A stretch of 64,000 nucleotides of DNA. It comes from Beijerinckiaceae bacterium (GTDB lineage Bacteria > Pseudomonadota > Alphaproteobacteria > Rhizobiales > Beijerinckiaceae). Numbering within the stretch: position 1 is the stretch's first letter; the number at the start of each line of letters is the position of its first letter. Under the pieces are notes generated by a model. That model saw only the letters and a list, made by a program, of their open reading frames with translations, was not told the origin of the DNA and did no database searches. The translations under genes and the position numbers were made by a program. Positions 4,224 through 34,637 of the stretch are shown here, one piece after another. The DNA lies in the NCBI GenBank assembly GCA_030684835.1, contig JAUXWZ010000157.1, positions 62,001 through 126,000 of the forward strand, given 5' to 3'.

Positions 4224-5255
4224 CTATTCCGCAGCTTGCGCGCGCACGCTCCACGAACCGACCTCGCTGGGCAGGTTCAGGATTCGCACGGCGTTATCGA
4301 AGAATAACTTCTGCGAGTCCTCTGCCGAAACGTTCAGCTCCGCGATGTACGCGAGACATTCCGACGGAAGCCAGCAGGGATAGTCCGTGCCGTACATCAC
4401 GTTGTCGATGCCGTAATAATTGATGGCGAAACGCATGCCGGCGCTGTGGGGCGTGACCGTGTCGGTATACATGCGCTTCAGGTAATGGCTGGCGGGCTTT
4501 GGCAGGTTCGCGCCCTTGGTGTTCTTGTCCATTCGACCGGACTGGTACGGCAGTGCCCCGCCGGTGTGCGACATTACGAGCTTGAGGTCCGGGTGGCGCT
4601 CCAGCGTGCCGGACAACACAAGCCGCATGGCCGCAGAACTTACTTCCACCACGCGGCCCAGCGACGAATGCAGCGCGCCTCCGTAGCCGTTCAGCATATT
4701 GTTGAACACAGCGTCAGTCGGATGGAGGTAGACGGGGAGGTTGAGCTCAGCGCAGCGCGCATAGAAGCTCTGGAGCCGCTCGGCGTCGATGCGAGAATCC
4801 ACGCCGACGGATCCCGGCAGATTGACGCCGACAAGCCCGAGACGATTGACTGCGTCCTCCAGCACGTCCATCGCAACTTTCTCGTCCTGCAGCGGAATAG
4901 CCGCAGTGCCGTAAAACCGCGTCGGATAACGCGCCTGCTGCGCCGACATTTCCTCGTTCCAGAGGATCGCGAGGTCTCGTCCCTCTTCCACAGGTAGCGT
5001 CGAGAAAAACACCGAGAAGGGTCCAATCGAACCCACCACGCTGACGTCGTGACCGAGCGCATCCATATGCGCGAACTGAGCCTCGATATCGTACCATTCT
5101 GCGCCGCCGTTCAGGACGCAATCGATGTCCGGCAGAAGCCGCGAGGTGTAGCCGCCCTTATCGTTCGGCTGCGAGTAAGGGAACTCGGTTCGCTTGCACA
5201 TCGCGTTCAGCACCGAGCGGGGCCACCAGTGGAAATGGGAATCTATGATGCGCAT
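4224..5255 (-). CDS. ACMSD-like amidohydrolase (amidohydrolase_2), set 1
   Basis: The 343-residue protein has the amidohydrolase TIM-barrel signature: HFH at residues 7-9, a mid-protein LHPTD, SHTGGALPYQSGRMD near residue 230 and YGTDYPCW near 290. These supply the His/Asp metal ligands of the ACMSD/gamma-resorcylate decarboxylase subfamily, most members of which decarboxylate aromatic or muconate-type acids or hydrolyse related lactones. It is the last gene of set 1, 137 bases downstream of the Bug receptor. A paralogue with the same motifs closes set 2 (19566-20618). Substrate is not predictable. Confidence 0.85.
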   Translation of the reverse strand: MRIIDSHFHWWPRSVLNAMCKRTEFPYSQPNDKGGYTSRLLPDIDCVLNGGAEWYDIEAQFAHMDALGHDVSVVGSIGPFSVFFSTLPVEEGRDLAILWNEEMSAQQARYPTRFYGTAAIPLQDEKVAMDVLEDAVNRLGLVGVNLPGSVGVDSRIDAERLQSFYARCAELNLPVYLHPTDAVFNNMLNGYGGALHSSLGRVVEVSSAAMRLVLSGTLERHPDLKLVMSHTGGALPYQSGRMDKNTKGANLPKPASHYLKRMYTDTVTPHSAGMRFAINYYGIDNVMYGTDYPCWLPSECLAYIAELNVSAEDSQKLFFDNAVRILNLPSEVGSWSVRAQAAE

Positions 5256-5392
5256 CGCCAGACCTCGCTCCCTGCCAAGTCGCTCCTCTCGGAGCAGCCC
5301 TTGTCGTTGATCTTAGTATAAACCTCTTTTCGACCCGCTCGCTATCATCTTTGCATCGCGCTCCCACGGAGCCGCTTTGGTCACGCGCCGCC

Positions 5393-6421
5393 TCATTGCG
5401 GTTTTACCATTGCCTTTACGCTGTCGATCAGGCCCTTTGGCGCCTCATAAATATCATCAAGCAGGCCGTGGATCTCCTTACCCGCCATAGGCTCCACCTC
5501 GATGCGCAGCTTGGCCGCATCCGCCTTGAACCCTGCGTCCGCAACCATAGAATCAAAGGCTTGGCGCAGGGCGGCCAGGCGTGCCGGTGGAACCGCCGGT
5601 GGAGACAGGAAGGGACGTCCGGCCGCCGTCGGCGCGAGAATGACCTTGAGCATTGCCTTTTCATCATTACTGCGAGCCAGCGCGGTGATTGCCGGCACAC
5701 CGGGCAAGCGCGGGTTGGCTTCCAGCCCCAGAGCCACAATTGCGTTGACCTTGCCCTCGGGAATCCAGTCCGGGTGTTGCGAATTCAGGCTTGAGAACGT
5801 CTGGCACAACGCCTGCGATTCCCCGCGCTCGAAGGCGAGGACAATGGAGCTTCCATCAGGATACCCTGAGACGACGCGAAACTTCGCTCCGAACAGGTTG
5901 CGCAACATCGTCGGGTACATGAACGTTGTCGTCCCCGGCGCTGTTGTTCCGATAACGACCTCCTTGGCCAACAGATCGGTCCAAGTAGCGACGTCAGAGG
6001 CCTTCGACGTGATGCAAACGCCATCCTCGCGACTTACGCTTCCGAGCCAGTTGAATTTTCGCGGCTCGAACTTGATGGAGCCCCCGGCGAGCAGCGGCGC
6101 GGTCAGAAGCGCGTTGCTGAACGTGCCGATGACGCTGCCGTCGCGCGCCGAAACATTGAAGAGAAGATTTGCAGCGATGATGCCGCCGGCGCCCATCGTG
6201 TTGGTGACGATGACCTTCGGTGCGCCCGGCACGAAGCGCCCAAAGTGCCTTGAAACAAGACGCGCGTTAAGATCGTAGCCGCCGCCCGGCCCGGTGCCAA
6301 CGACGATCTCCATATTTCGTCCGCGATAAAAGTCCTCGATCGCATCAGCGCGCAACGGCTCTGCGGCTGTGATCGCTGTCACGCCAAGGAGCGCGAAGAT
6401 AAGAGTGCGTAAGGCCTGCAT
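5393..6421 (-). CDS. Bug-family (TTT-type) periplasmic binding protein, set 1
   Basis: A 342-residue solute receptor with a signal peptide (hydrophobic stretch ending near PLRADA) and the Bug hallmarks VGTGPGGGYDLNAR near residue 40 and a MGAGG loop near 75. Family members bind carboxylates, aromatic acids, amides or vitamins in the periplasm. No TctA or TctB membrane partner occurs in the window. It lies 29 bases below the bicupin gene, with a strong ribosome-binding site (GAGGGAGGG), and is probably in the same operon. The ligand presumably is the set 1 substrate (inference). Confidence 0.88.
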   Translation of the reverse strand: MQALRTLIFALLGVTAITAAEPLRADAIEDFYRGRNMEIVVGTGPGGGYDLNARLVSRHFGRFVPGAPKVIVTNTMGAGGIIAANLLFNVSARDGSVIGTFSNALLTAPLLAGGSIKFEPRKFNWLGSVSREDGVCITSKASDVATWTDLLAKEVVIGTTAPGTTTFMYPTMLRNLFGAKFRVVSGYPDGSSIVLAFERGESQALCQTFSSLNSQHPDWIPEGKVNAIVALGLEANPRLPGVPAITALARSNDEKAMLKVILAPTAAGRPFLSPPAVPPARLAALRQAFDSMVADAGFKADAAKLRIEVEPMAGKEIHGLLDDIYEAPKGLIDSVKAMVKPQ

Positions 6422-6450: not shown

Positions 6451-7542
6451 TTAGCGGGACATGAAAGCATCCATCTGCACTGCCACTCCGCGGCGCGTCA
6501 TTTCATCGACATAGATCTGGTGAACGCGGGGATCCTGATCCGCATACTCGATCTGGTTGCCACCACTCTTCACGTCTACATCGACGCCTCGATAGACTTT
6601 CCACATATTCTGCGTGAAGGGATAGCGCACGCTGCCATGGCCGATGGCAATGTATCGCGTCCGGTTTGCACTACTGTTGAAATGCTGATGGTACATCATG
6701 TCGGGCGGCGCGAAGACCCAGCCCTGCTTCCAGTTGATCCGCACGAAGTCGCCGTCGCCCTCATACCAGAATAGCGAATACCCTTCTCCCGAAAGGCAGA
6801 AGACATGCACGTCCGGGCCGTGCCTGTGGGCTTTCTTGTAGGTCCCAACCTTCATCTCGGAAATGTGAGCGTGCAATACGCTGTCGGCGAGAATGAGTTG
6901 GATGTGCGCTGAGTTGGCGCCCCGCGCAGCCCATTCGCGCAATTCAAGATTGTTCGCGTCGGGAACGAAATTCGTTTCCCACATGTGCTTGCCGGGACGC
7001 ACGGGTATGAAATCGCCCTCGCCCCGAAAATGGCTGACCGCACCTTCGCGTTCGGGAAACGTGAAGGGATTGTCGAAGACGAAACGCTCGCTGTGAAAAA
7101 GATTCATCACGGCCGGCAAGTTACTGCAGATTGCAACGCGCGCCGGCTCGCGCAGCGAGGCGTTGAAAAGCTGATGCCGCATGTTGATCGGCGGCGCAAA
7201 CACACTGTTCGGGCCCCATTCGAAAATGTGCTTGCCACCGCCATGGCTTTCGACCGATGTCGTTCCATGTCCTGAAATCACGATGACTGCGTCTTCACAG
7301 AAATGGCGCATCGGTTCGGTCTTCCCGCCCGGCGGAATCTCCAGAAGGAAGATGGTCATGAAATCGCCGCGCCCCTTCACGTGTGCGACGCAACCGGGAA
7401 CGCCGTAACGGGGCCAATGGCTGACCGGCAACGCATGAAGATCGAGGCCGAAATCTTCGTGGATTGGGACGCCCTCGCCCTTTGTCCATTCCAGATAAGG
7501 GTCGATCATGAACTTGCCGGGCGGCGGATCCTGGTTCAACAC
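6451..7542 (-). CDS. Bicupin, gentisate-dioxygenase-like fold, set 1
   Basis: The protein has two cupin domains. The N-terminal one (about residues 65-160) keeps a partial motif (PMRHFCEDAVIVISGHG), and the C-terminal one (about 235-320) has a full-looking HRHGPDVHVFCLSGEGYS and a later HQHFN. Metal is therefore most likely bound only in the second domain. The layout resembles gentisate 1,2-dioxygenase-like bicupins, but activity is unproven. I chose the GTG at 7542 (363 residues) because AGG lies six bases upstream and it starts just after the stop of the M24 gene. Other in-frame starts are at 7584 and 7509. Set 2 carries the two domains as separate genes. Confidence 0.8.
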   Translation of the reverse strand: MLNQDPPPGKFMIDPYLEWTKGEGVPIHEDFGLDLHALPVSHWPRYGVPGCVAHVKGRGDFMTIFLLEIPPGGKTEPMRHFCEDAVIVISGHGTTSVESHGGGKHIFEWGPNSVFAPPINMRHQLFNASLREPARVAICSNLPAVMNLFHSERFVFDNPFTFPEREGAVSHFRGEGDFIPVRPGKHMWETNFVPDANNLELREWAARGANSAHIQLILADSVLHAHISEMKVGTYKKAHRHGPDVHVFCLSGEGYSLFWYEGDGDFVRINWKQGWVFAPPDMMYHQHFNSSANRTRYIAIGHGSVRYPFTQNMWKVYRGVDVDVKSGGNQIEYADQDPRVHQIYVDEMTRRGVAVQMDAFMSR

Positions 7543-7550
7543 GTGCGACC

Positions 7551-8720
7551 TCACAAAAGAGTAATGACGTCCGGAACCGTGCAAAGGGGCTCGGCCCCGC
7601 TCGCAATGATCCGAACGGTTTCGCCAATCGCAGCGCCACCTTTCGGGCCATGCGCGATAACCCTGAGTGCGAGCGTCTGCCCTTCGCTCAGGTGCGCTGC
7701 GGCGTCGGAATTGATCGTCGATCCTTCAGCCTGATCGAGGCCGATTCCACCACCGAGCCCGTAAAGCATCGCAGTCTCCGCGAACTGGCCAAGTGCTGCA
7801 CGCGCGGCGCTTTCGAGCGCCGCAACAGATACGCCGGGACGGCACGCTGCGCGCATCGCTGCGAGTGCTTTACTGCATCGCGAATAAGCATCGACTGCGG
7901 GCGCCTGCGGCGAGCCAACGCTGAACGTTCGTGCGCTATCCGCCCAGTAACGCTGGTTTTGAACGGCGAGAAAGACAAGAACAATGTCGCCATCGCTGAT
8001 CGTGTGATCGTGGACCGGACGCAGAGGCCGGCAGCCATCGCGACTGACCGAAACAAGGATGCGTGCATCCTCCGCGCCCTTCGAGCGACAAAGCCGCTCG
8101 AGCACGGCCATGGCGGCGCGGAGGTTAGCCCCGGGACGAAGTGCTTCGCGCACACCGTCGAACGCCTGCACGACGATATCAGCCGAGCGTTGGATTGCCG
8201 CAATCTCGTGCTCATCTTTGCTCGCCCGCATCGCGTCGAGTTCAACATCACGCTCGCACCATACGATGTCCGGGCGGGCCTCCGCGATGAGCGTCCATTC
8301 GGCGTAGGGCATCGCGCCGGCGACGCCACACAATCCGATACGCGCGCCCTTTGCTGCGCGTTCGTCCAGCAGCGCGACGAGATCTTTCGAGATTTTCCCG
8401 AACGCGCGAATCTCGTCAACGTAGGTGATCGTCTTGGCGGCGGGTATGTCGCGCGTACTGATGTTGGCGAGCAGGACCGGTTCGCCGTCTCGCGGAATCA
8501 AGGCAAGTGCAGAACGCACGCGCGGCATGAAGTTTGTCGCGTAAACAACTGGCCCGTGGCGTTCGACGTCGCCCATCATTATCCACGCGTCATCGCCACT
8601 CGCTTTAATCTGCGCCTGAACCCGCTGAAGACGCGCGCGATATCCGCTCTCTGGCAGAAGGTCGCGATCCCAGTAAAGCGCGCCACGCTTCACCACGGAA
8701 TGCATGGTTCGCATGCTCAT
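7551..8720 (-). CDS. M24-fold (creatinase/Xaa-Pro peptidase-like) protein A, metal site degenerate, set 1
   Basis: This 389-residue protein has the two-domain creatinase/aminopeptidase P layout. In the C-terminal pita-bread domain most metal ligands are altered. The segment after GDIVLV reads FLAVQNQRYWADSARTF, so the first Asp is Phe while the second remains, and the His loop reads GLGGGIGLD, with Gly where His is expected. A late GETVRI keeps one Glu. A normal dinuclear metallopeptidase is unlikely. Creatinase shows that this fold can work without metal. It overlaps its M24 partner by ATGA, suggesting a heteromeric pair. The paralogue in set 2 is at 28607-29734. Confidence 0.8.
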   Translation of the reverse strand: MSMRTMHSVVKRGALYWDRDLLPESGYRARLQRVQAQIKASGDDAWIMMGDVERHGPVVYATNFMPRVRSALALIPRDGEPVLLANISTRDIPAAKTITYVDEIRAFGKISKDLVALLDERAAKGARIGLCGVAGAMPYAEWTLIAEARPDIVWCERDVELDAMRASKDEHEIAAIQRSADIVVQAFDGVREALRPGANLRAAMAVLERLCRSKGAEDARILVSVSRDGCRPLRPVHDHTISDGDIVLVFLAVQNQRYWADSARTFSVGSPQAPAVDAYSRCSKALAAMRAACRPGVSVAALESAARAALGQFAETAMLYGLGGGIGLDQAEGSTINSDAAAHLSEGQTLALRVIAHGPKGGAAIGETVRIIASGAEPLCTVPDVITLL

Positions 8721-9847
8721 GATGCCCTCCAGAACAGGCGTTGCGGCGTTGTAGTGAGAATGACCGGGCCTGCATCGCCAACGACAATCGTGTCGCCGAG
8801 CATCAAATAGCCAGTCTCCGGCACATACTGATTAGGGTGCACGACGAACGTCATGTCCCGTTCGAGAATGGGCGCCGACGAGTCGGTGAGATCCGCCGGC
8901 ATGACGCCGCCAAGCCCCAGGCCGTGCCCGCGCGTGCGCATGTACGGCGGCCGGCAATAATCGGCGTAGCCATACTTTCCGATCACATCGTTGATCGCCC
9001 GCGCAATACCGCTCGACGGCAGACCTGCGCGCGTGACTGCGAGGCCCGCATTCTCGGCTTCGATGAGCATGTCAAATTTTGTGCGCTGCAGGTCAGTCGG
9101 CTCGCCAAGGATGAATGTTCGGCAAAGCTGCGCGAAATAACCCTTGTAGCAAGGCGTGATCTCGCCAATCACCACATCGCCGGCTTCAAGCACGCGGTTG
9201 TTGACCGCGCGAACGGCGACATTGTGGGAGCCTGTGGCGATGAGCCCGAAATTGTCCTCGGAGCCAAGTGATTGCATCGCCGCTTCCACCTCGGCGGCCA
9301 AGTCGTATTCGCGCATTCCGGGTCGGGCGACTGCACAGAGATGTTCAAATCCCTTGTCTGCTATCTCCGCCGCCTTGCGAACGCGCTCGAGCTCGAAAGA
9401 CTTTCGCATTCGCGATGCGGCGCGAACGATATCGCCCCCGTCACGCGGCTCAAAACCCAGCTCCGCGAAAAACGCTTTGCCGCGCGCAAGCGTCATGACT
9501 TCCGTTCCGATCATCGCAATCGGCCCGGGAAGCGCGCGCGCTACACGCGCCATCTCTGCTACAAGCTCGTCCTCGCCAACTCCGATGATTTCGCCAAAGC
9601 AGCACGCCTCTCTCGCACGCGCTTCGTCCCAACGCGGCGTCACCACAAGCGTGGGCGCCCCGAGTGCAGGCACGAACAAAGCCGAAGGGCCAAGCGCGCG
9701 ATGATCGGTCAGCAGCATAATCGGATCAGGCCGCAGCATGTTGTGCTGTGCGCCATAATAGGCAACGAGACCCCCCAGACCCTTCTGCATCAGCGCGGAT
9801 CGTACTTCGCGAAGCCGCTCTTGAAGTTCGCTTGCCCGTGATGTCAT
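8717..9847 (-). CDS. M24-fold (creatinase-like) protein B, non-canonical site, set 1
   Basis: A 376-residue creatinase-like protein. At the first metal position it has GEITPC (Glu229 instead of Asp), at the second AQLCRTF (Gln240), and it keeps RGHGLGL (His308). The usual Glu in the VVEPG strand is His337 (VVHPNQY). The pattern differs from protein A but is the same in the set 2 copy at 29745, so it is conserved rather than decayed. The retained His suggests a hydrolase of the creatinase type acting on a C-N bond (inference). It overlaps hyuB by ATGA at its start and protein A at its stop. Confidence 0.82.
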   Translation of the reverse strand: MTSRASELQERLREVRSALMQKGLGGLVAYYGAQHNMLRPDPIMLLTDHRALGPSALFVPALGAPTLVVTPRWDEARAREACCFGEIIGVGEDELVAEMARVARALPGPIAMIGTEVMTLARGKAFFAELGFEPRDGGDIVRAASRMRKSFELERVRKAAEIADKGFEHLCAVARPGMREYDLAAEVEAAMQSLGSEDNFGLIATGSHNVAVRAVNNRVLEAGDVVIGEITPCYKGYFAQLCRTFILGEPTDLQRTKFDMLIEAENAGLAVTRAGLPSSGIARAINDVIGKYGYADYCRPPYMRTRGHGLGLGGVMPADLTDSSAPILERDMTFVVHPNQYVPETGYLMLGDTIVVGDAGPVILTTTPQRLFWRAS

Positions 9848-11616
9848 CGCGCTCCCCCTTCTGGCTGCTTTGTTTCCGCAGCCATCTGCGTGCGCAGTGA
9901 CTTCGTCTTTTCAGTATCAACCCGCATCGTGACCGGATCAATCATGACGCCGTAATCGACGCGCGCGGCATCACGATCGATAAACTCGTCGAGTACGTCA
10001 TTAAGCACACGTTCCGGGTCACGCTCCAACGGAGAACCCCACCCTCCGCCGCCCGCTGTTTCGACACGCACCGTGGCGCCCGGCGCGCACATGATTCGCA
10101 CCGGATCAAACGGCTTGAACGGCTCCTCACTCGACAACCGCATATAGTTGATGGAAGAGGTGCCTGAGCGACCGCCGTTCAGTCCCCACGGCGGGAACTT
10201 GCGACGACCCGCGTTCGAAGCGCTCCAACGGCCTTCCCCGAGATTGGTCATCTCCGTGATTTGACCAAAGCCACCACGGTGCTTGCCGGCTCCCGCCGAT
10301 CCGTTGCGCAATTCGCGACGGACAACACGCACGGGAGTCTTCAACTCCACCGCTTCGATCGGATTATTGCGCACGTCGCCCTGACACACGGAGACCGCAG
10401 CCGACTCGCCGTCTTCGTAAGGGCGCCCCCCCCAGCCCCCGCCTTCGATCGTCTGCAGGATGAACTTGCGCGCATTGCGCGGATCGACACCGAAGAACGT
10501 CATCGAGCCGCCTAGCGTGCCAAGGTGCGCGGCGGGAATACGCTCGGGAGCGGCGGGCGCGAGAGCCTTGAGGATCGTATCCACGACACTGGGAAGCATC
10601 CTGCTCCAGCTCGCCATGACGGCGGGGAACCGCGCCATCATAAAATTCCCCTCCTGAATTTCAACCTTCAACGCCCGAAAGGAACCTTCATTCACAGGCT
10701 CAAGCGGACCTGTCAGCCCCTTGTATGCGATGTAGGCGCCCGCCAAAGTGCGCCCGTTCAAGGCGCTCTTTCTCTCCTGTGAGCATCCCGTCAGGTCGAT
10801 GGTCATGTCTTCGCCGGAGATGATAACCTTGATGTTGATCGGCACATTGTCGGCGCCGGGAGAATCGGGGTCCAGAAACGAGGACGCTTCGTAAACGCCG
10901 TCCCGCAGGCGCGCTACGGCGTTGCGGCACTTTCGTTCTGCATCATCAAAGATGCGCTCGATGGCGCGGTCCAGCGTGTCGGCGCCATAGCGCTTGATGA
11001 GCTGGCCATAGCGCCGATCCGCCATCTTGCACGCAGCAACCTGCGCGCGAAGATCGCCCATCGACGCCTCCGGATATCGAATATTGTCGGTGATGATCCG
11101 CAAGACCTTGTCGTCTGGAACGCCGGCCTCATAAATTTTGATCTGGTCGAGTTGCAGACCCTCCATCCATGGATCACTGACCATCGAAGCGGCGCTGAAC
11201 CCTGTCGACAGTCCGCCAACATCCACCCAATGCGCACGAACGATCGCGAACCCCTCAAGCTTGCCTTCGGCGAAAATGGGAGAATAAACGCAGACGTTAT
11301 TGAGGTGCTGGCCTGCGACACGCTGGTGATTGGTGATGATGACATCGCCGCGTTGAAACCCATCCGCACCGTAGCGGTTCAGCCCGTCCTTGATGATCAC
11401 GCCCAGATCGGCGACGAAGTGGGAGACGCCGCCGACATTTTGCGCGATCAGCCTCCCCTCGCGATCAAGCAGCGCGCAGCAGAAATCCTGCACCTCGTAG
11501 ATCATCATGTTGTACGACGTGCGTAGCAGATCGGTCGCCATGTCGGCTGCAATCGCAGGCAGCGCGTTTCGCAGAACTTCGAGTGTAACGGGATCAAGTT
11601 TTTCCAACGTGGACAT
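9844..11616 (-). CDS. Hydantoinase B / oxoprolinase-type subunit (HyuB), set 1
   Basis: The 590-residue protein is a HyuB-family subunit, opening with LDPVTLEVLRNALPAIA and carrying the characteristic AQNVGGVSHFVADLG, NHQRVAGQHLNN and RAHWVDVGG motifs. HyuA and HyuB together form ATP-dependent amidohydrolases (N-methylhydantoinase, oxoprolinase) or carboxylases (acetophenone carboxylase type). I chose the ATG at 11616, two bases after the hyuA stop. A TTG two codons upstream would overlap that stop. The gene is translationally coupled to M24 protein B. No acetone-carboxylase gamma subunit is present nearby. Confidence 0.9.
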   Translation of the reverse strand: MSTLEKLDPVTLEVLRNALPAIAADMATDLLRTSYNMMIYEVQDFCCALLDREGRLIAQNVGGVSHFVADLGVIIKDGLNRYGADGFQRGDVIITNHQRVAGQHLNNVCVYSPIFAEGKLEGFAIVRAHWVDVGGLSTGFSAASMVSDPWMEGLQLDQIKIYEAGVPDDKVLRIITDNIRYPEASMGDLRAQVAACKMADRRYGQLIKRYGADTLDRAIERIFDDAERKCRNAVARLRDGVYEASSFLDPDSPGADNVPINIKVIISGEDMTIDLTGCSQERKSALNGRTLAGAYIAYKGLTGPLEPVNEGSFRALKVEIQEGNFMMARFPAVMASWSRMLPSVVDTILKALAPAAPERIPAAHLGTLGGSMTFFGVDPRNARKFILQTIEGGGWGGRPYEDGESAAVSVCQGDVRNNPIEAVELKTPVRVVRRELRNGSAGAGKHRGGFGQITEMTNLGEGRWSASNAGRRKFPPWGLNGGRSGTSSINYMRLSSEEPFKPFDPVRIMCAPGATVRVETAGGGGWGSPLERDPERVLNDVLDEFIDRDAARVDYGVMIDPVTMRVDTEKTKSLRTQMAAETKQPEGGAR

Positions 11617-11618
11617 GA

Positions 11619-13679
11619 TCAATGTCCCCGATTGATTTCAATGACGAGCTCACCCGACGCGGCGACGGTCAGAACGTCGCCTTCGTGCAGAATCGTCGTC
11701 GATGCATATTCGCTCACTGCCGCAGGGCCGCTTATGCGTTCGCCCGCGGGCAATTCATCGCGCTGATAGACGGGACATTGCCGCGCGGCGCCGCCCCACC
11801 CATCAAAAATCATGTCGCGAGCGCCGATGAGCCCGCTGCCTGTCGACCCAACCGACGTCGACGGCAATTGCACGCGATCACGCCGCCCCCGGCCGGTGAG
11901 ACGGCAGTTCACCACTTCCACGTCCTCGTGCACGGCCTGATGTCCGAAGCGACGTTCGTGACTGCGGTCGAAAGCCGCGCGCAGCGCCTGCATGTCGCCC
12001 TCGGCGATGGCATGCGCGGAAACCGGCGTCTGGATTGGAAATTCCTGGCCAGCGTAACGCATATCGAGGTAAATATGAATCGAAGTCTGATCAGCGCGCA
12101 TGCCTTCGGCGATAAGAAGGTCTCGCGCCGAAGCTTCCATCTCGGCAAATATTTTTTGCAGCGCGGCGAAGTCGCACTCAGCCAGCGGCTTGTAATACGT
12201 GCGCACAAAGTCGTGCCTGAGATCGGCGAGCAGCATCCCGAGCGCCGAGAAGTGACCGGGAACCCTTGGGATGATGACCTTCGGTATGTTGAGTTCGCGC
12301 GCGATCTCGGCGGCATGCAGGGGGCCCGCACCACCAAACGCCACCATCGCGAAATCACGCGGGTCATGCCCGCGGCCAATCGAGACGGACTGCACCGCAA
12401 GCGACATTTCAGCGACTGCAATCTTGATGATCCCGAGCGCCGCGTCTTCCACGGAGACGCCAAGCGGCCCGGCAATGTTTTTCTGGATCGCGGTGCGCGC
12501 AGCTTGCGTATCGAGCTGCATTTCGCCGCCGAGGAAACGATCCGATCCGAGCCGCCCAAGAATCAAATTAGCGTCCGTGACTGTCGGCGCCTCGCCGCCC
12601 AGTCCGTAACAGACAGGCCCCGGATGGCCGCCCGCGCTGCGCGGGCCGACCTTGAGTGCCCCGACTTCATCGATCCACGCAATTGATCCACCACCGGCGC
12701 CAACTTCCACGATGTCGATCACCGGATACATGACCGGCAGTCCCGACGCTTCGCCTCCGACAAAATAGCCCTGTGCAATAACGGGCTCGTTTTCCTGAAC
12801 CAGACTGACCTTCGCGGTCGTCCCACCCATGTCGAAGGCGATCAGATTGCAAACGCCCAGTTCGCGGCCGGTCTCGGAAGCGGCGATGATCCCGCCCACC
12901 GGACCCGATTCCATCGTTGCAACCGGAAGCAGCCGCGCCGTCTCTGGCGACATGGCGCCGCCGTTTGATTGCATGATGAGAAACTGTCCGCGAAACTCGG
13001 CATCGCCGAGGAGATTTTCGAAGTCCTGTAAATAGCGGCTGACCCGGGGACCAACGTACGAATTCAAAACTGTTGTCGAAATTCGTTCGTACTCACGATA
13101 CTCGCGCAGAATTCCATGGCTGAGCGAATGAAACAGATCGGGGACCAATTTCTTCAGCTGGTCACCGACGGCCACTTCATGCGCGGGGTTGGCCCAGGAA
13201 TGAATGAGGCATACAGCAGTCGCCTCTACCTGTTCCGCCTTCAATCGCTCCGCGATGGGTGCAACGCCGCCGACATCCAGCTCGACCACCACTTCGCCTT
13301 CGGCGTCCAGGCGCTCTACGATCTCGAATGTGCGGCGGCGCGGAACCAGTGGTTGCGGTCGCTTGAAAAGAAAATTGTAGGATTCCGGCCGATTGCCTCG
13401 CCCAATCTGATAGACGTCGCGCGTGCCCTGAGTGACAATCAACGCGGTCTTGGCGCCCGTCCGTTCGATGGCCGTATTGATCGCAACGGTAGAGCCGTGG
13501 ACGAAAGTGTCAACACGCGAAATAGGGAGGCCACTTTTGGCGAGCGTTTTCCGGATGCCAACCGACAGGTCATACGGCGTCGTGGAATCCTTCGCCTGGA
13601 TCACTGTACCAGTGGAAAGATCAAAAGCGACAAGGTCCGTAAACGTGCCACCTATATCGAGAGCGACCACTAACGACAC
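11619..13679 (-). CDS. Hydantoinase A / oxoprolinase-type ATPase subunit (HyuA), set 1
   Basis: A 686-residue HyuA-family protein with the ASKHA-type nucleotide site ALDIGGTFTDLVAFD at its start, HGSTVAINTAIERTGAKTA, the DMGGTTAK phosphate loop near residue 285 and GGAGPLHA near 440. It would phosphorylate or activate the substrate carbonyl for HyuB. The start is a GTG at 13679 placed behind a strong AAGGGGGGA site. The 8-codon upstream extension contains that site and is unlikely to be translated. It is the first gene of set 1, divergent from the LysR gene at 13871. Confidence 0.9.
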   Translation of the reverse strand: MSLVVALDIGGTFTDLVAFDLSTGTVIQAKDSTTPYDLSVGIRKTLAKSGLPISRVDTFVHGSTVAINTAIERTGAKTALIVTQGTRDVYQIGRGNRPESYNFLFKRPQPLVPRRRTFEIVERLDAEGEVVVELDVGGVAPIAERLKAEQVEATAVCLIHSWANPAHEVAVGDQLKKLVPDLFHSLSHGILREYREYERISTTVLNSYVGPRVSRYLQDFENLLGDAEFRGQFLIMQSNGGAMSPETARLLPVATMESGPVGGIIAASETGRELGVCNLIAFDMGGTTAKVSLVQENEPVIAQGYFVGGEASGLPVMYPVIDIVEVGAGGGSIAWIDEVGALKVGPRSAGGHPGPVCYGLGGEAPTVTDANLILGRLGSDRFLGGEMQLDTQAARTAIQKNIAGPLGVSVEDAALGIIKIAVAEMSLAVQSVSIGRGHDPRDFAMVAFGGAGPLHAAEIARELNIPKVIIPRVPGHFSALGMLLADLRHDFVRTYYKPLAECDFAALQKIFAEMEASARDLLIAEGMRADQTSIHIYLDMRYAGQEFPIQTPVSAHAIAEGDMQALRAAFDRSHERRFGHQAVHEDVEVVNCRLTGRGRRDRVQLPSTSVGSTGSGLIGARDMIFDGWGGAARQCPVYQRDELPAGERISGPAAVSEYASTTILHEGDVLTVAASGELVIEINRGH

Positions 13680-13690
13680 AAATTCCCCCC

Positions 13691-13746
13691 TTGAACCACG
13701 CACTTCGGCGCGACTGGAACCTCGCGCTTGGGCGCTTCTGGTTCAA
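13691..13746. promoter_or_regulatory. Inverted repeat in hyuA/LysR intergenic region
   Basis: TTGAACCA (13691-13698) and TGGTTCAA (13739-13746) form a perfect 8-bp inverted repeat with a 40-bp spacer. Related half-sites TGGAACC (13715) and CGGTTCA (13792) lie in the same divergent region. Placement between a LysR gene and its divergently transcribed catabolic operon suggests operator sites, though the long spacer is unlike a simple T-N11-A box. Confidence 0.45.
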
Positions 13747-15918: not shown

Positions 15919-15975
15919 TTCACCTTCGCGTTGAGATTCCATGAACACGTCTTGGTTTGGACGGGAGACCAGAAA

Positions 15976-21798: not shown

Positions 21799-21814
21799 GC
21801 GCTTCTCCAACGGT

Positions 21815-26597: not shown

Positions 26598-27430
26598 GCG
26601 AGCCCCTGCCGGTCTTTGCCGATTGCTGCAAGAACCTCGTCACGCAGAAGTTCGTAGAGGCGATTGCGCAGATCGTTGAACTTCGACGATGTCATGAACG
26701 TGGGGATACGCGGATGCGGTTCGTCGACATTCAAAACTGCCTTGATGCGCCCCGGCCGCGACGTGAATACAAATATCCGGTCGGAGAGGAAGACCGCTTC
26801 AGCGAGGCTGTGCGTAACCAGCACGATCGTCTTGTGTTCGTTTGCGAGCAGGCGTGACAGATCCTCAGAGAAGATCATGCGAGTCTGTTCGTCGAGCGCA
26901 GCAAAGGGTTCGTCCATCAAAAGAATGTCGGTACGAAGGCTCAAGGCGCGCGCCAGCGCGGCGCGTTGTTTCATTCCTCCCGATAATTGATGCGGATAGG
27001 AATCGCCGAAAGCATCGAGACCAACCGCGGTCAGAGAAATTCGTGCAATCTTGTCGCGGCTCGCGCGTGGCACACCCTGAAATTCCAGACTCACCTTAAT
27101 GTTGTCGAGAATTGTTGCCCAGGGCAGCAGGGCACTCTCCTGAAAGATGTAGGCGACGTCTTTGGGACGAGGCCCCTTCACAGGTGTTCCGCCGATCAGG
27201 ACGTGCCCCTGCGAAGCCGCGATCATGCCGCCGACGACGTTCAACAACGTGCTCTTCCCGCAGCCGCTGGGTCCAATCAGCGAAACCATTTCGCCGCGCG
27301 CTATGTCGATGTTGATGCCGTCGAGCGCGAGCACCTCTTCCTCGCCTGTCTTCGAAAGAAAGGCGTGCCGCACATCGTCTACCTTTATCAATGCTTCCCC
27401 TTCCAAAGTCCCCTCCAGCAAGCAGTTCAC
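26594..27430 (-). CDS. ABC transporter ATPase (SsuB/TauB type)
   Basis: The 278-residue ATPase has Walker A GPSGCGKST, Q loop FQESALLPW, signature LSGGMKQR, Walker B ILLMDEPF and switch VTHSLAEAV, the standard order of nitrate/sulfonate/taurine importers. The GTG at 27430 overlaps the stop of the binding protein. A TTG about 15 codons further in, behind GGAAGGGGAAG, is an alternative start that begins at the conserved part. It energises the two downstream permeases. Confidence 0.88.
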   Translation of the reverse strand: MNCLLEGTLEGEALIKVDDVRHAFLSKTGEEEVLALDGINIDIARGEMVSLIGPSGCGKSTLLNVVGGMIAASQGHVLIGGTPVKGPRPKDVAYIFQESALLPWATILDNIKVSLEFQGVPRASRDKIARISLTAVGLDAFGDSYPHQLSGGMKQRAALARALSLRTDILLMDEPFAALDEQTRMIFSEDLSRLLANEHKTIVLVTHSLAEAVFLSDRIFVFTSRPGRIKAVLNVDEPHPRIPTFMTSSKFNDLRNRLYELLRDEVLAAIGKDRQGLA

Positions 27431-28419
27431 CGCTTGGCGGTCGGAAGGAACTCTTCCGTGTAAAGCGTTTTGGGGTCGGGCTTGAAATCGAGAATCTTCA
27501 GTTCCTGGAAAGAATCGACAATGAGACGAAGCGCGGATTCCTTGAAGCGCATGTCCTTCGACATCATCGGCATCACCTTGCCGAACTCCTGCCGCTGAAT
27601 GTTGACCGGAATGCCCGTAACCTTCGAAGCCAGCACGATAGCTTCCTCCGGGTTCGTGCGCATGAACTCGACCGTCTCCATCCAGCCCACGAGAAAGCGC
27701 CTGATGACGTCAGGCTTGTCCTTCACGATGCGGTTGTTGGCGAAAACCACATGGGTATGGAAGTCCGGGATCATGTCGCCAAAGTGCAGCATGACCTCGC
27801 CCTCATTCTTTTCATCGAGCATATACCCGACCGAGGCGGACATGATGAACCCATCAACCTGCCCGCTCTTCAAGCCGGCGATTTGGCCCGTGATGGAGCC
27901 CAGCGGCACCATGCGAATACCATCCGGCCCCCATCCCATGCGGCGAGACAATTCGCGCGCAAGCCAATAGGTGAGCGATCCGTTGGTGGTGATGCCAACG
28001 CGAGAGCCCTTCAAATCCTCGGGCTTCTTGTACTTTGAGTCTTTCCCGGTAATGAGCCCCATGCTGAGCGGCTGATCTGCGATGACGCCCACAGTCATGA
28101 TCGGCGCCTTCCTCGCGATGAAGCCCATGGACGGACCGCTGCCGAGACCGAAGTCAATTTCATTTGCGATCATGCCCTGCTGCATGCGCGCGTCGCCGGC
28201 ATATTGCTGCACCTGAACCTTCAGGCCGTGCTTTTCCCAAATGCCTTTGGCGGCGCCAATTTCCGGCGGCGAGAAAGCCAACGCATTCGAGGCCGTCTTG
28301 CCTACGCGCACGACATCCTGCGCGTATGCGGCAGAACCCGTGGTCAATATCGCAGCAGCAAGGACCAACGCCGCGTGGATGTTCCGCCGGGTCAGCAAAC
28401 CTGGTGTGTTCATTGCCAT
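27427..28419 (-). CDS. ABC transporter substrate-binding protein (NMT1/SsuA-like)
   Basis: The 330-residue periplasmic receptor has a twin-Arg-like but probably Sec signal (TRRNIHAALVLAAAILTTGSAAYAQ) and the NMT1/THI5-like fold: NALAFSPPEIGAAKGIWEKHGL, FGLGSGPSMGF and GSRVGITTNGSLTYW. Relatives bind sulfonates, nitrate, pyrimidine precursors or aromatic carboxylates. It is the first transporter gene of set 2. A gap of 187 bases separates it from the M24 gene; I see no separate gene there, and an internal promoter is possible. Confidence 0.87.
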   Translation of the reverse strand: MAMNTPGLLTRRNIHAALVLAAAILTTGSAAYAQDVVRVGKTASNALAFSPPEIGAAKGIWEKHGLKVQVQQYAGDARMQQGMIANEIDFGLGSGPSMGFIARKAPIMTVGVIADQPLSMGLITGKDSKYKKPEDLKGSRVGITTNGSLTYWLARELSRRMGWGPDGIRMVPLGSITGQIAGLKSGQVDGFIMSASVGYMLDEKNEGEVMLHFGDMIPDFHTHVVFANNRIVKDKPDVIRRFLVGWMETVEFMRTNPEEAIVLASKVTGIPVNIQRQEFGKVMPMMSKDMRFKESALRLIVDSFQELKILDFKPDPKTLYTEEFLPTAKR

Positions 28420-28606: not shown

Positions 28607-29734
28607 TTACTGCCTTCCGCTCGACCGGAAGATGACCTCCGTGCCACCTTCCCGCACCAGCACGACAGCGGATGATATGCACCCCGACGCGCCATCGATG
28701 GCCCCGGAATGCAGGGCATAGACAAGTCCCGGCTCAATCACGCCGTCGGCGTCGCTGGTTATCTCGCAGCCCTCGTCCAGCGACAGCCCTACCCGTCGAC
28801 CAAAGCGCCCGCTCAACACAGGATGAAGTGGGCGCCCTTCAAGCGCGGCCTGTGCATGAGACGCCAGCGTCGAGAGCCGCTCCCCCGGTCGCATCCCTTC
28901 GATGAGCTTGTCGAGCGAAGCATCGCAAGCTACGCGAAGAGCCGGCAACGCCTCCGGCGCCACAAACGTCTCGCACCAATAGCCGAGATGCTTGACTGCA
29001 ACATAGACGAGCAGGTTGGCGGGCCGATCCTCGAACCGAGCGGCATAAGGCTGCATGGTCAAGCCACCGTCACGGCTGACGAGTGTGCGCACGTCCTGTG
29101 CTGCGGCGCTTCTGGCGCGGCGTTCACCGGCAAGCGCCGCACGTTCGACGTCCGCGCCGCCACGCCACGCTTCGATGATCGCAGCTTCAGCAAGCTTCGT
29201 TGTTTGTGCGGCTTCGCCTATCACCGCGATCTCGCGGGGTCGATGGCGACTGCGCGCTTCCGTCAGCAATTCATCTGCCGCTTCTATCTCGAAGCGGTCC
29301 TCGATGCTGCGCGAAACAGAGCCGAACAAAAGCGGCGTCATCAACTCAAGGCCAATGGCGCCCAGCTTGCCATCAGTGGGCAGGCTCGCCACCCATTCGT
29401 CAAACCAGCGCCATTCCCAGCCGGATTTGACGTCCGGCAACCATGTCATCGTGCGCATCGCCGGCATATCGCGCGAGCTCATCGACGCCAGGAGAACGGG
29501 CGCTCCCTGTGCGGGAAACAGCGCCATGGCCCAACGCATGCGCGGGATGAAATTGCTGAAATAGGCGAGCGCCGCATGTTCGCGCGCATCGCCGTAGACG
29601 AGCGCGCCAGCCCATCCGCGCTCCTTGATGGCGGACCGGATCGTGTCCATCCGGATGTCAAACTCGTCGCGCGGCAGACGCTCTTCATCCCAGAGGTAGG
29701 AGCCTAATACAATCGAGGGGTGAACCGTCAGCAT
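28607..29734 (-). CDS. M24-fold protein A, metal site degenerate, set 2
   Basis: A 375-residue counterpart of the set 1 protein at 7551. The C-terminal domain has lost the M24 ligands more completely: NLLVYVAVKHLGYWCETFV has neither Asp, the His loop reads FGRRVGLSLDEG, and the late Glu strand reads YALHSGAID. The family match rests on length, the paired partner and conserved N-terminal segments (ALAYFSNFIPRMR, LLASMSSRDMPA) shared with set 1. It is probably a non-catalytic subunit. Confidence 0.75.
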   Translation of the reverse strand: MLTVHPSIVLGSYLWDEERLPRDEFDIRMDTIRSAIKERGWAGALVYGDAREHAALAYFSNFIPRMRWAMALFPAQGAPVLLASMSSRDMPAMRTMTWLPDVKSGWEWRWFDEWVASLPTDGKLGAIGLELMTPLLFGSVSRSIEDRFEIEAADELLTEARSRHRPREIAVIGEAAQTTKLAEAAIIEAWRGGADVERAALAGERRARSAAAQDVRTLVSRDGGLTMQPYAARFEDRPANLLVYVAVKHLGYWCETFVAPEALPALRVACDASLDKLIEGMRPGERLSTLASHAQAALEGRPLHPVLSGRFGRRVGLSLDEGCEITSDADGVIEPGLVYALHSGAIDGASGCISSAVVLVREGGTEVIFRSSGRQ

Positions 29735-29744: not shown

Positions 29745-30860
29745 TCAAACGCTCACAAAGTCGAGCTCGGCATCCGCCTCGGAAAGCGAGATGGCGCCAT
29801 TGTGCGAGATGATCACCGTCTCTCCGCACATCAAATAGCCGGTCTCCGGGATATACTGGTTAGGATGCATCACGAAGACCATTCCCTCTTCCAGTTTGAC
29901 GTCGCTATCCTCAACAACATCACCGGGACGATCCGACGTCACCCCAAGTCCATGGCCGCGCACGCGCATGTAAGGCGGGCGGCAATAATCGGCATATCCG
30001 CCCTCGCGGAACACATCATTCATGGCCTGCGTCACCTCACCCATGGTTGCGCCGGGCACGGCTGCATCCATGCCGCGCCGCATTGCTCGCTGCACAAGAG
30101 CATACTTGTCTGCGAATACCGGCTTTGCGTCTCCAAGCACGGTCGTCCGGCAGATCTGCACGAATTGTCCCTGAAAGCAGGGCGTAATCTCGCCAAGGAT
30201 GATGTCGCCTTCCTGCAAGATTCGACGGCCCGCCGCGCGCACGGCCAGATTGTGTTGAGACGCGCTCATCAGCAGGAAGTTGTCCTCGGCCCCTAGCTCC
30301 TTCATGAAAACATAAATATCGGCTGCAAGTTCAAACTCGCGAATTCCCGGACGAGCCGATGCGACAAGCCGCTCATAGCCGCGTTCGGCTATCCAGACCG
30401 CCTTCTTCACGGCGGCGAGTTCCTCCGCATTGCGAATGCGCGCAAGATGCGATGCAAGCGTGTCCGCCGCTCTCGGTTCGCTCGCGAGAAGGCTCCGCAC
30501 GGAACGATCAAGGGCACGGCTCTGCTTGGCGAGCGCGACCACGGCGAGCGATGCGCCTGCGAGCCCATGATGAGTAAGTTCTTCAGATAACGCTTGAACG
30601 AGATTCTCAGTCGCACGCGTTCGCGTCGTGAACGATATGCCGCGCGCACGCTCTTCATCCCACACTGGTTCGACGATGAGTGTCGAAGAACCATCGCGGC
30701 CGATGATGACCGCCGAGCGGCCTATGGGACGCACGCCACTGAATACATACACAGCGTTCGAATCCAGAAACGAATTCTGCCCGTCATTGAACGCGATCAG
30801 GCCATCAAGCTTCTCATCCTTGAGCCATTCGATGGCGGTAGTAATGCGGTCCTTCTTCAT
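29745..30860 (-). CDS. M24-fold (creatinase-like) protein B, set 2
   Basis: A 371-residue creatinase-like protein. The same substitutions as its set 1 paralogue are visible: ILGEITPCFQGQFVQICRT (Glu and Gln for the two Asp), the retained RGHGLGV His and FVMHPNQYIPETGY (His for Glu). The late CGETVII keeps a Glu. Conservation of this unusual site in two diverged copies argues for function. It overlaps hyuB by ATGA and lies ten bases upstream of protein A. Confidence 0.82.
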   Translation of the reverse strand: MKKDRITTAIEWLKDEKLDGLIAFNDGQNSFLDSNAVYVFSGVRPIGRSAVIIGRDGSSTLIVEPVWDEERARGISFTTRTRATENLVQALSEELTHHGLAGASLAVVALAKQSRALDRSVRSLLASEPRAADTLASHLARIRNAEELAAVKKAVWIAERGYERLVASARPGIREFELAADIYVFMKELGAEDNFLLMSASQHNLAVRAAGRRILQEGDIILGEITPCFQGQFVQICRTTVLGDAKPVFADKYALVQRAMRRGMDAAVPGATMGEVTQAMNDVFREGGYADYCRPPYMRVRGHGLGVTSDRPGDVVEDSDVKLEEGMVFVMHPNQYIPETGYLMCGETVIISHNGAISLSEADAELDFVSV

Positions 30861-32608: not shown

Positions 32609-32615
32609 CGCCGCC

Positions 32616-34637
32616 TCATGCTCCAAGCTGAATGACGAGTTCGCCCGTCGCGGCGACTTCGCACCGGTCGTCCGGAAACACCACCGTCGTCGACCCATAT
32701 TCCTGAATGAGCGCGGGCCCCTGCACGACGGCGCCTGCGGGAAGCGAAGCGCGCTCGTGAACGACACAAGCGACGGGACCTCCAGCGTACATGATCACTT
32801 CGCTTGTGCGCACAGGCGCGCTGGCGCCGCCAGCCGCCGGCATTGCAGGCTTGGCGCGCGGCGCGCGTGCGACGAGCCTGACGTTGATCATCTCAACAGG
32901 CTCGTTGACGGCGTTGTGCTCGTAACGCGCCTTGTGCAATGCGTCGAACCCGGCGCGGATGCCGATGCGGTCCTGCGACGCGATTTGATCGCGCGCGACC
33001 GGAACCGAAAGGTTGAACTCCTGCCCGACGTACCGCAGGTCCAGAAAGAGATCGATCTTTGCGCCATCCTGCCGCGCCATGGAATGCAGCGCGCCCTCAA
33101 GTTCAGAAATCGCCGCGCCAAGCGCCACGAAATCGAGCGTCTCCATCCGAGCCGGAAAGGTTCGCACCGCATCGTGCCGCTCGTCCGCCATCAACATGCC
33201 AAGAGCGGAGAAATGCGACGGGAACCACGGAATGACCACCGTCGGAATGCTGAGCTCGCGTGCAATCGCAACTGCGTGCAGCGGGCCAGCGCCGCCTGAA
33301 GCAACAAGCGCGAAATCGCGCGGATCATAACCCTTCTCAACCGAGACCTGACGCACCGCCAGAGACATCTTGGCAACGGCGATATCAACGATTGCGCGTG
33401 CCGCCGCCTCGACGTCGAGACCAAGCGGCTGGGCGATACGGGCCTCAATGCCCTTGCGCGCAGCCTCCCGATCAAGCTTCATTTCGCCACCGAGGAATGT
33501 CGATGGATCAAGGCGGCCAAGCACCACATTCGCGTCGGTGATCGTCGGCTGTTCGCCGCCGAGCCCGTAGCAGATTGGACCGGGCGCGGAGCCGGCACTT
33601 CGCGGCCCAACCTTCAGCGCGCCCACTTCATCGATCCACGCGATGCTGCCGCCGCCGGTGCCAACTTCGACAACGTCCACGACCGGGATCATCACAGGAT
33701 CACCGGACTCATAACCGCCGACGTAATAACCCTCGGCCATCCCCGTCATGCCTGCGCGGACGAGGCTCGCTTTCGCCGTCGTGCCGCCCATGTCGAAGGA
33801 AATCGAATCCGCAAAGCCAAGCGCACCAGCAACTTCTGCGCACGCGATAATGCCGCCGACCGGGCCAGATTCCATCATCATGACCGGGCGACGGGCAGCG
33901 ATTTCGGGAGACATGACTCCGCCATTCGACTGCATGATAGACAACTCGCCGCGAAAGCCGTGCTCTCGCAAAGCGCCATCGAGCGAGCCTACGTATCCGC
34001 TGACCTTTGGCCCGATGTACGCGTTCACCGCGGTCGTCGAGATGCGCTCATACTCGCGATATTCGCGCATGATCTCGTGCGACGCCGTCACGTAACAGAA
34101 ATCGAATGCGGAGCGGAGGGCTGCACTGGCCCGCTCTTCATGCGAGATATTCGCGTAGGAATGTAGAAAGCAGATTGCGACGGCCTCAAAGCCTTCATCC
34201 TTCAGGCTGCGCGCGAGCTTTTCGACCTCAGTTGTATCGAGGCTGGTGCGCACCACGCCGCCGGCCAGCATGCGTTCATCGATCTCGAAAATCGCAGCGC
34301 GCGCGACGAGCGGCTTGGGGCGCGTGAAGAACAAATTGTAGGCGTCTGGCCGATTGCCGCGCCCGATGGCGTAGACATCGCGCGTCCCTTTGGTGACGAG
34401 TAGGGCAGTCTTCGCGCCCTTTCGCTCGATGAGCGTATTGATCGCCACCGTCGAGCCGTGAATGAGTTGTGCAGCGTTGTCGAGACTCAAGCCGCTTGCG
34501 TTGACGCAGTCCAAAATCCCGTCGACGAGGTTTCGAGGCGTGGTGAGGCGTTTGGCTGAGTACAATTGCGCTCTGGCCTGATCAAAGGCGACCAGGTCCG
34601 TGAACGTTCCGCCGATGTCGACCGCAACGAAAAGCAA
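32616..34637 (-). CDS. Hydantoinase A / oxoprolinase-type ATPase subunit (HyuA), set 2
   Basis: A 673-residue HyuA with AVDIGGTFTDLVAFD at its start, STVAINTLIERKGAKTA, DMGGTTAK and GGAGPLHA, parallel to the set 1 protein. I place the start at a TTG (34637) because GGGGGAA lies five bases upstream and the conserved fold begins immediately. The same arrangement is seen for set 1. The further in-frame extension to 34694 includes that ribosome site. First gene of the set 2 operon, divergent from the LysR gene at 34755. Confidence 0.87.
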   Translation of the reverse strand: MLFVAVDIGGTFTDLVAFDQARAQLYSAKRLTTPRNLVDGILDCVNASGLSLDNAAQLIHGSTVAINTLIERKGAKTALLVTKGTRDVYAIGRGNRPDAYNLFFTRPKPLVARAAIFEIDERMLAGGVVRTSLDTTEVEKLARSLKDEGFEAVAICFLHSYANISHEERASAALRSAFDFCYVTASHEIMREYREYERISTTAVNAYIGPKVSGYVGSLDGALREHGFRGELSIMQSNGGVMSPEIAARRPVMMMESGPVGGIIACAEVAGALGFADSISFDMGGTTAKASLVRAGMTGMAEGYYVGGYESGDPVMIPVVDVVEVGTGGGSIAWIDEVGALKVGPRSAGSAPGPICYGLGGEQPTITDANVVLGRLDPSTFLGGEMKLDREAARKGIEARIAQPLGLDVEAAARAIVDIAVAKMSLAVRQVSVEKGYDPRDFALVASGGAGPLHAVAIARELSIPTVVIPWFPSHFSALGMLMADERHDAVRTFPARMETLDFVALGAAISELEGALHSMARQDGAKIDLFLDLRYVGQEFNLSVPVARDQIASQDRIGIRAGFDALHKARYEHNAVNEPVEMINVRLVARAPRAKPAMPAAGGASAPVRTSEVIMYAGGPVACVVHERASLPAGAVVQGPALIQEYGSTTVVFPDDRCEVAATGELVIQLGA

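Follow-up and report, generated by a model that had tools for sequence, protein, structure and literature searches.

A candidate mobile catabolic unit with an M24 pair and a variant HyuAB, carried as two diverged gene sets by a Beijerinckiaceae bacterium

Creatinase draws active-site residues from the N-terminal domain of its partner subunit and, together with ectoine hydrolase (EutD/DoeA) and the prolidases, is among the closest structural relatives of a pair of M24 proteins described here. A study of E. coli prolidase (PMC4213023) describes that enzyme as a head-to-tail homodimer with contacts between both domains and with an N-terminal loop that contributes to the opening of the active site. 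Caprolactamase (CapAB), like N-methylhydantoinase, represents a two-subunit, ATP-dependent enzyme type, and a caprolactamase report (PMC8453981) describes the CapB metal ligands Asp41, His99, Asp102, and His124 as essential and as conserved in the family. This article concerns two gene sets in which relatives of these enzymes are combined with cupins and with amidohydrolases resembling 2-amino-3-carboxymuconate-6-semialdehyde decarboxylase (ACMSD). They lie in a 64,000-nucleotide stretch of DNA from a Beijerinckiaceae bacterium (assembly GCA_030684835.1, contig JAUXWZ010000157.1, positions 62,001 to 126,000 of the forward strand), the whole of which is referred to as the window.

Searches of the open-access literature, preprints not covered, returned no paper on this gene combination and none on related M24 enzymes or pairs, in agreement with the original prediction, made from the sequence of the window, that no described pathway has this gene set. 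The module is apparently undescribed, and the chemistry, substrate, and reaction order proposed for it below have the standing of a hypothesis. The reading favoured here, to which a probability of about 0.55 is assigned, is that the two sets form one mobile catabolic unit with the proposed pathway.

Layout and divergence of the two sets

Both sets are headed by hyuA, hyuB, and two M24 genes, here named M24B and M24A. Their genes, in coordinates of the window, are as follows.

Set 1
11619-13703, minus strand: hyuA, ATPase subunit of the ATP-dependent HyuAB family (Pfam Hydantoinase_A, 7e-99)
9844-11622, minus strand: hyuB (Pfam Hydantoinase_B, 3e-140), with the metal tetrad D46-H106-N109-H131 read from alignments
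8717-9847, minus strand: M24B, predicted catalytic member of the pair (Pfam M24, 4e-35)
7551-8720, minus strand: M24A, predicted non-catalytic partner with a better conserved N-domain (Pfam M24, 2e-26)
6451-7584, minus strand: double cupin (Pfam Cupin_2), real start probably ~7509
5393-6421, minus strand: Bug/TctC periplasmic receptor (Pfam TctC, 6e-7)
4224-5255, minus strand: ACMSD-like amidohydrolase (Pfam Amidohydro_2, 3e-32; PDB matches to ACMSD)
13868-14818, plus strand: LysR regulator, divergent from hyuA (Pfam)
14875-15918, 15931-17007, and 17217-18224, plus strand: three extra Bug/TctC genes (Pfam TctC, the first two under the curated cut-off)

Set 2
32616-34694, minus strand: hyuA (Pfam, 2e-94)
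30857 to ~32608, minus strand: hyuB (Pfam, 3e-139), in a frame open from 32767 with the start placed by homology
29745-30860, minus strand: M24B (Pfam M24, 6e-31), with the same E-Q-H-H-G site as in set 1
28607-29734, minus strand: M24A, with a strongly degenerate catalytic domain (Pfam M24, 24.2 bits against a cut-off of 23)
25045-28419, minus strand: NMT1/SsuA-type ABC importer (Pfam; NCBIfam SsuA family under cut-off), made up of a substrate-binding protein (27427-28419), an ATPase (26594-27430), and two permeases (25800-26597 and 25045-25803), all on the minus strand
22837-25044, minus strand: Cdc48-like double AAA ATPase with a His-rich N-terminus (Pfam; NCBIfam CDC48, 629 bits against a cut-off of 803)
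21815-22840, minus strand: Bug/TctC receptor (Pfam, 4e-11)
21271-21810, minus strand: single cupin a (Pfam Cupin_2, 7e-5, under cut-off; weak NCBIfam dioxygenase matches)
20761-21270, minus strand: single cupin b, or cupin 2b (Pfam Cupin_2, 5e-10)
19566-20618, minus strand: ACMSD-like amidohydrolase (Pfam, 9e-32)
18239-19549, minus strand: MmgE/PrpD family protein, the final gene of the set (Pfam)
34755-35666, plus strand: LysR regulator, divergent from hyuA (Pfam)

The gene classes named in the original prediction were verified by Pfam in both sets: the hyuA-hyuB-M24B-M24A head divergent from a LysR gene, the cupin module, the Bug receptor, and the ACMSD-like amidohydrolase, as well as the cargo particular to each, namely three more Bug genes in set 1 (two of them under the cut-off) and the ABC importer, AAA ATPase, and MmgE/PrpD gene in set 2. 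Both sets had been said to close with the ACMSD-like gene, which holds for set 1 and fails for set 2, where the MmgE/PrpD gene comes last, 16 nt beyond the amidohydrolase. The cupin module differs in form: set 1 has it as one double cupin, set 2 as two single cupins that abut. The latter match each other (E 2e-18) and match the double cupin weakly (E 0.005 and 5e-4). The overlapping start and stop codons that had been pointed out are also present, with three 4-nt overlaps in the head of set 1 and five in set 2. The Cdc48-like AAA ATPase (22837-25044), which stands within the catabolic operon, recurs at 61-84% identity in three congeners (G016, G032, and G044).

Between the sets, identity amounts to 54% for HyuA, 59% for HyuB, 38% for M24B, 32% for M24A, and 59% for the amidohydrolase, and in a tree of 81 M24B sequences the two proteins belong to distant, supported clades, of 11 members for set 1 and 9 for set 2. 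Judged by these comparisons the sets are old, diverged paralogues, as had been proposed; a recent duplication is ruled out by the 32-59% identity and the separate, supported M24B clades.

Conservation within and beyond the genus

An M24B alignment scan of one genome for each of 84,980 species yielded 91 relatives, of which the best 80 loci were kept. Several of these loci share one genome and so are not independent, many of their contigs are cut, and all except four come from metagenome assemblies, for which taxon labels may err; the gene counts that follow are similarity matches, several of them weak. By label, the best 80 of the 91 span Alpha-, Beta-, Gamma-, and Deltaproteobacteria, Binatia, Tectomicrobia, Eremiobacterota, Chloroflexota, Bacillota, and others. 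M24A lies directly after M24B in 77 of the 80 loci and somewhere in the locus in 79, and hyuA and hyuB are both found in 42, as against an estimated ~4% of random 21-kb stretches of this genome in which hyuB would be expected by chance (an estimate from nine own-genome matches). Matches to MmgE occur in 26 loci, to the amidohydrolase in 22 (at least 55% identity in 14), and to the cupins in 17. The original prediction had tied the idea of a shared pathway to the head being kept together outside this strain, and these counts show that the head does recur elsewhere. As far as such gene orders can tell, the head is a conserved gene module rather than a strain quirk, the matching loci in other bacteria ruling out a strain-specific oddity, and the module is likely to be a catabolic one. 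The system is also patchy, since among 385 genomes of the class (at most five candidates scored per genome) an M24B profile matched at E 1e-60 in the bacterium's own genome only.

Isolates among the loci include Microvirga alba BT350, Caulobacter sp. S45, and Paenibacillus validus, the first of which carries hyuA-hyuB-M24B-M24A-MmgE and an amidohydrolase. Neorhizobium galegae accounts for three of 14 plasmid records, and two of these N. galegae records were examined. On the megaplasmid of strain HAMBI 540, a single strand holds hyuA-hyuB-M24B-M24A-MmgE, then genes for a substrate-binding protein, an ATPase, two permeases, and an amidohydrolase (64%), with a divergent LysR gene, the operon occupying ~5.2-17.9 kb of locus L135; in strain VafX2 the same gene run lies ~2 kb from a tyrosine recombinase gene that adjoins a tRNA-Leu. 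The VafX2 M24 proteins carry the annotations ‘aminopeptidase P family’ and ‘M24 family metallopeptidase’, names to which the loss of the metal ligands lends no support. In this strain hyuB, M24B, and M24A are annotated in pieces (L134, 13267-17613), HAMBI 540 giving long matches, which may reflect decay or sequencing error. An M24 pair is also found in an environmental metagenome-assembled genome labelled Bordetella parapertussis (L123), a label that looks doubtful.

The genus was sampled with 51 genomes including the bacterium's own, the congeners being labelled Rhizobiales, Hyphomicrobiales, Beijerinckiaceae, or Roseiarcaceae. Set 1 M24B was found in eight of the 51, and set 2 M24B in the same eight plus one other (G030). 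Close relatives of other genes track these carriers: cupin 2b at no less than 76% identity in the same eight (92-93% in G016, G032, and G044, partial in the last), the double cupin at 65% or above in the eight plus G034, and the amidohydrolase of set 2 at 80% or above in seven of the eight. The set 1 head is whole, or cut by contig ends alone, in all eight genomes, and the set 2 head is intact in seven of nine. An rpoB tree could be drawn for 36 of the 51 genomes (carrier G045 lacks a usable rpoB gene, and G034 sits on a very long branch), and the seven carriers on it require seven changes, a distribution as scattered as that of shuffled labels. Across this tree, set 1 M24B changes jointly with set 2 M24B and with cupin 2b in six independent pairs (median p 0.031, the minimum possible for six; range with set 2 M24B 0.031-0.063, a few pairings giving five pairs and one tie), and the plain overlap probability, which ignores kinship, is 1e-8. 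In G050 the two sets are split between a 63-kb and a 91-kb contig, at distances of more than 20 kb from a contig end, so that close linkage is no explanation there. Because set 1 M24B always occurs with set 2 M24B and cupin 2b in carriers that are scattered on the rpoB tree, one pathway spread by transfer is supported. The original prediction is thereby partly supported: its core, a single multi-enzyme pathway, has the backing of gene order kept outside the strain and of the co-presence of both sets even on different contigs, and the succession of steps that it put forward (HyuAB, M24 cleavage, cupin, decarboxylation) would be a conjecture.

The M24 pair, HyuB, and the associated enzymes

When set 1 M24B is aligned with the prolidase 1pv9, the residues D, D, H, E, and E, which we take to be the metal-ligand positions of the latter, correspond to E229, Q240, H308, H337, and G351. 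These five are invariant in 78 of 78 M24B rows and are all kept in 12 of 12 loci from a separate protein search (two of which were also found by the seeds). M24A aligns to M24B along its full length (E 1e-43), and at the places of E229, Q240, H308, and H337 its commonest residues among 76 rows are Tyr (38), Glu (43), Gly (38), and Arg (36, with His in 12). The description of these proteins as ligand-poor thus applies to M24A and M24B alike, and a classical two-metal M24 peptidase is ruled out for the pair by the ligand loss. Only one member of the pair apparently keeps a working site.

Structure models of the set 1 proteins (pLDDT 95.9 for M24B and 94.6 for M24A) both show a complete pita-bread M24 fold, closest to EutD/DoeA, creatinase, and prolidases. 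The pair shares its full-length fold with ectoine hydrolase and creatinase but differs from them in its E-Q-H-H-G constellation and near-obligate gene pairing, and its members score at most 67 bits with ectoine hydrolase models, against a cut-off of 613. The two proteins are conserved in opposite domains. Among 17 pairs from the genus, with domain borders set by the analyst at 138 (M24B) and 158 (M24A), invariant columns number 7 of 138 in the N-domain and 72 of 238 in the C-domain of M24B, and 20 of 158 and 8 of 231, respectively, in M24A. In the wide alignments, M24B carries 1.44 (N) and 2.42 (C) units of information per column and M24A 1.71 (N) and 1.36 (C), and M24B has 5 N-domain and 58 C-domain columns conserved at 80% or more. 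A filtering of M24 rows that excluded those containing stops, unknown letters, or short matches kept 76 for M24B and 74 for M24A. Since conservation falls on the catalytic domain in M24B and chiefly on the N-domain in M24A, a heterodimer is suggested in which M24B would supply the pocket and M24A the N-domain, and a heterodimeric C-N hydrolase is plausible.

HyuA of both sets retains the two phosphate-binding motifs DxGGTxTD and DxGGT (DIGGTFTD and DMGGT in set 1), and the best PDB matches of HyuAB are caprolactamase and N-methylhydantoinase. The set 1 subunits, the only ones scanned, nevertheless reach just 501 of 1000 bits (HyuA) and 259 of 1000 bits (HyuB) with the caprolactamase NCBIfam models. 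The third metal ligand, Asp102 in CapB and essential there (PMC8453981), is Asn in HyuB, giving the tetrad D-H-N-H in each set and in all 44 readable HyuB proteins of M24B loci (one of the 45 locus rows, L101, was dropped for having no residues there). Five further HyuB proteins of the same genome read D-H-D-H, a reading that also holds for the gene of L002 (L212); row L005 was left out. In the genus, all 29 HyuB proteins from the set clades whose loci were retrieved have Asn, with M24 genes within a 1.5-kb flank for 24; of the other five, two are contig-cut and three have no M24 gene in the flank, two of these three having the pair ~3 kb off, upstream of hyuA. Twenty HyuB proteins chosen from other clades carry His (13), Asn (5), or Asp (2) at the site (Fisher p 2e-9, kinship ignored), and no M24 genes were seen within ~4 kb of them where the contig allows. 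One genus clade of HyuB reads D-H-H-H, with the motif SHLNH (L193-L200, L202-L206, L210), and no M24 genes were seen near its members.

The cupins of both sets are distant homologues of gentisate and 5-aminosalicylate 1,2-dioxygenases, from which they differ in scoring 20-30 bits where the cut-offs are 442 and 650 (for gentisate, at most 30 against 442) and, in set 2, in being split into two genes. The set 1 double cupin also has a weak NCBIfam MabB match far below cut-off, and in the PDB a weak match to gentisate 1,2-dioxygenase and a stronger one to auxin-binding protein. Both amidohydrolases belong, like ACMSD, to the Amidohydro_2 family and have matching, intact metal-site motifs (DSHFHW, LHPTD, SHTGG, and YGTDYP in set 1), which presumably hold the metal ligands; unlike ACMSD, they are matched by no NCBIfam model, and their best PDB match is an unassigned amidohydrolase. 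A census of the same-strand neighbours of M24B loci, in which 182 of 238 were scanned (80 + 102), counted 16 TctC receptors, 9 NMT1 proteins, 7 UbiD decarboxylases, 5 molybdenum hydroxylases, 4 nitroreductase-family proteins, and many singletons. BLAST clusters with UbiD members span 10 loci and those with molybdenum-hydroxylase members 8, four and three proteins, respectively, having been checked singly. Such neighbours fit the catabolism of aromatic or N-heterocyclic acids. The nitroreductase-family gene lies near the M24 pair in four genomes with different labels (L062, L064, L065, and L087), the L065 protein being closest to BluB, under its cut-off.

Island setting, proposed pathway, and alternatives

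Both sets lie between imperfect copies of the 3′ half of a tRNA-Leu gene, within a larger region marked by the following elements.

3329-3413, plus strand: tRNA-Leu(TAA), left island end (ARAGORN; Rfam tRNA)
3892-3942, plus strand: imperfect tRNA-Leu 3′-half copy, adjoining set 1 on the left (local alignment)
35698-35748, plus strand: imperfect tRNA-Leu 3′-half copy, adjoining the set 2 LysR gene on the right (local alignment)
36106-36579, plus strand: tyrosine-recombinase (Phage_integrase) fragment of 157 aa (Pfam, 2e-17)
53310-53364, plus strand: exact 55-nt repeat of the tRNA-Leu 3′ half, right island end (sequence comparison)

As in tRNA-associated genomic islands, the tRNA 3′ end recurs as a direct repeat at the distal border, and a weaker tRNA-like 3′ end stops at 3613; the integrase in the island is the 157-aa fragment only. 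The region looks like the product of successive insertions at one tRNA. A search for an empty site found no tRNA-Leu in 14 congener stretches around glyQ. Elsewhere in the island, 37364-43294 encodes a 1976-aa DUF4011/helicase/nuclease protein with a strong match in PADLOC to two defence models, PDC-S37 at 1202 bits and Hhe at 615 bits. At 45056-47381 lies a Rieske oxygenase gene whose product has a LigXa-like C-terminal domain; a Bug/TctC receptor gene comes next, overlapping it, and these genes may belong to the pathway.

What the comparisons show is a conserved module whose genes are inherited together (HyuA, HyuB, M24B, and M24A, with cupins, ACMSD-like amidohydrolases, and, at some loci, MmgE/PrpD and a Bug or ABC receptor), its active-site residues altered yet strictly retained, on a tRNA-Leu island. 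In the pathway proposed on this basis, the Bug and ABC receptors would import an organic acid that is probably aromatic or cyclic and contains nitrogen (N-heteroaromatic acids are our guess), and the gentisate-dioxygenase-like cupin would open or oxygenate its ring. HyuAB would activate a cyclic amide at the expense of ATP and hydrolyse it. M24B and M24A would then act as an obligate heterodimer, in which M24B gives the catalytic pita-bread pocket (E-Q-H-H-G, with no classical two-metal centre) and M24A an N-domain across the interface, a C-N bond being broken in the manner of creatinase or ectoine hydrolase. The MmgE/PrpD protein might rearrange or dehydrate the product before the ACMSD-like enzyme decarboxylates it, and two diverged copies would be kept because two successive or parallel intermediates of one substrate need the same chemistry. 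Taken in full, with an obligate heterodimer of one composite E-Q-H-H-G site, a metal-variant HyuAB, an undescribed ATP-driven pathway that uses the same chemistry twice per substrate, and spread on tRNA-Leu islands and rhizobial megaplasmids, the proposal is tentative, and the odds lean somewhat against it.

Several observations weigh against this proposal or parts of it. Of the 80 M24B loci, 38 have no full hyuAB in the stretch examined, so the M24 proteins may act without an adjacent HyuAB, and in two of nine genomes (G010 and G045) the set 2 M24 pair likewise occurs without adjacent hyuAB. Distant double cupins (46-56%) are present in 50 of the 51 genomes and amidohydrolases (60-67%) in 29, only close orthologues tracking the carriers, and the sign test rests on six pairs, shared islands accounting for joint gain in some. 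The search seeds covered M24B residues 334-350, which makes the invariance of H337 partly an effect of choice. Asn in HyuB is ruled out as a marker unique to M24-linked copies by the 5 of 20 HyuB proteins that have it without nearby M24 genes. One genome, G034, has a set-1-like hyuB (73%, on a cut contig) and the double cupin (65%) with neither M24B at the thresholds used. It can also be taken, with G030 and its set 2 M24B lacking a set 1 counterpart, as a sign of two independent catabolic operons for two compounds, which share an ancient HyuAB-M24BA enzyme type and travel together on islands. That the sets are deeply diverged, each with its own LysR and receptors, agrees with this, as does a third operon type, ABC importer-hyuA-hyuB-M24B, in 10 of 12 further genus loci (L152-L159, L162, and L163, the last nearly a copy of L154), 8 of the 10 with an M24A match and 4 with an ACMSD-like match at 71-73%. 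Two such operons would, however, leave it unaccounted for that set 1 M24B never occurs in the genus without set 2 M24B, even where they are far apart in G050, and that cupin 2b and the set 2 amidohydrolase track the same genomes, several of them on other contigs; we therefore regard independent operons as somewhat unlikely.

With the single unit still preferred, the roles of its enzymes admit other assignments. M24A and M24B could be separate homodimers with separate activities, paired for operon convenience alone: both models are complete M24 folds, E. coli prolidase is a homodimer (PMC4213023), and at the 80% level M24A has 10 of 158 N-domain and 12 of 231 C-domain columns, a weak contrast that also speaks against the proposed division, as the M24A pocket may not be dead. 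The near-obligate adjacency of the two genes, their opposite domain conservation within the genus, and the loss in most M24A rows of the two His of the M24B site make separate homodimers doubtful. HyuAB might instead be a carboxylase resembling acetophenone and acetone carboxylases, to which HyuA and HyuB are homologous, with M24BA hydrolysing a C-C bond of the carboxylated product, and the ACMSD-like and UbiD proteins nearby do act on carboxyl groups; yet both set 1 subunits score higher with N-methylhydantoinase and caprolactamase, and we think a carboxylase quite improbable.

New here are the E-Q-H-H-G site of M24B, the opposite domain conservation within the M24 pair, the Asn of HyuB, and the location on a tRNA-Leu island. 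Record titles place the module in several phyla, in many environmental genomes, and on the megaplasmid of a cultured rhizobium; with active sites altered in two of its enzyme families, it suggests that some step in degrading natural or man-made organic acids is still unassigned. If the proposal is true, the M24 pair would be a clear case of catalytic and covering domains divided between two diverged subunits.

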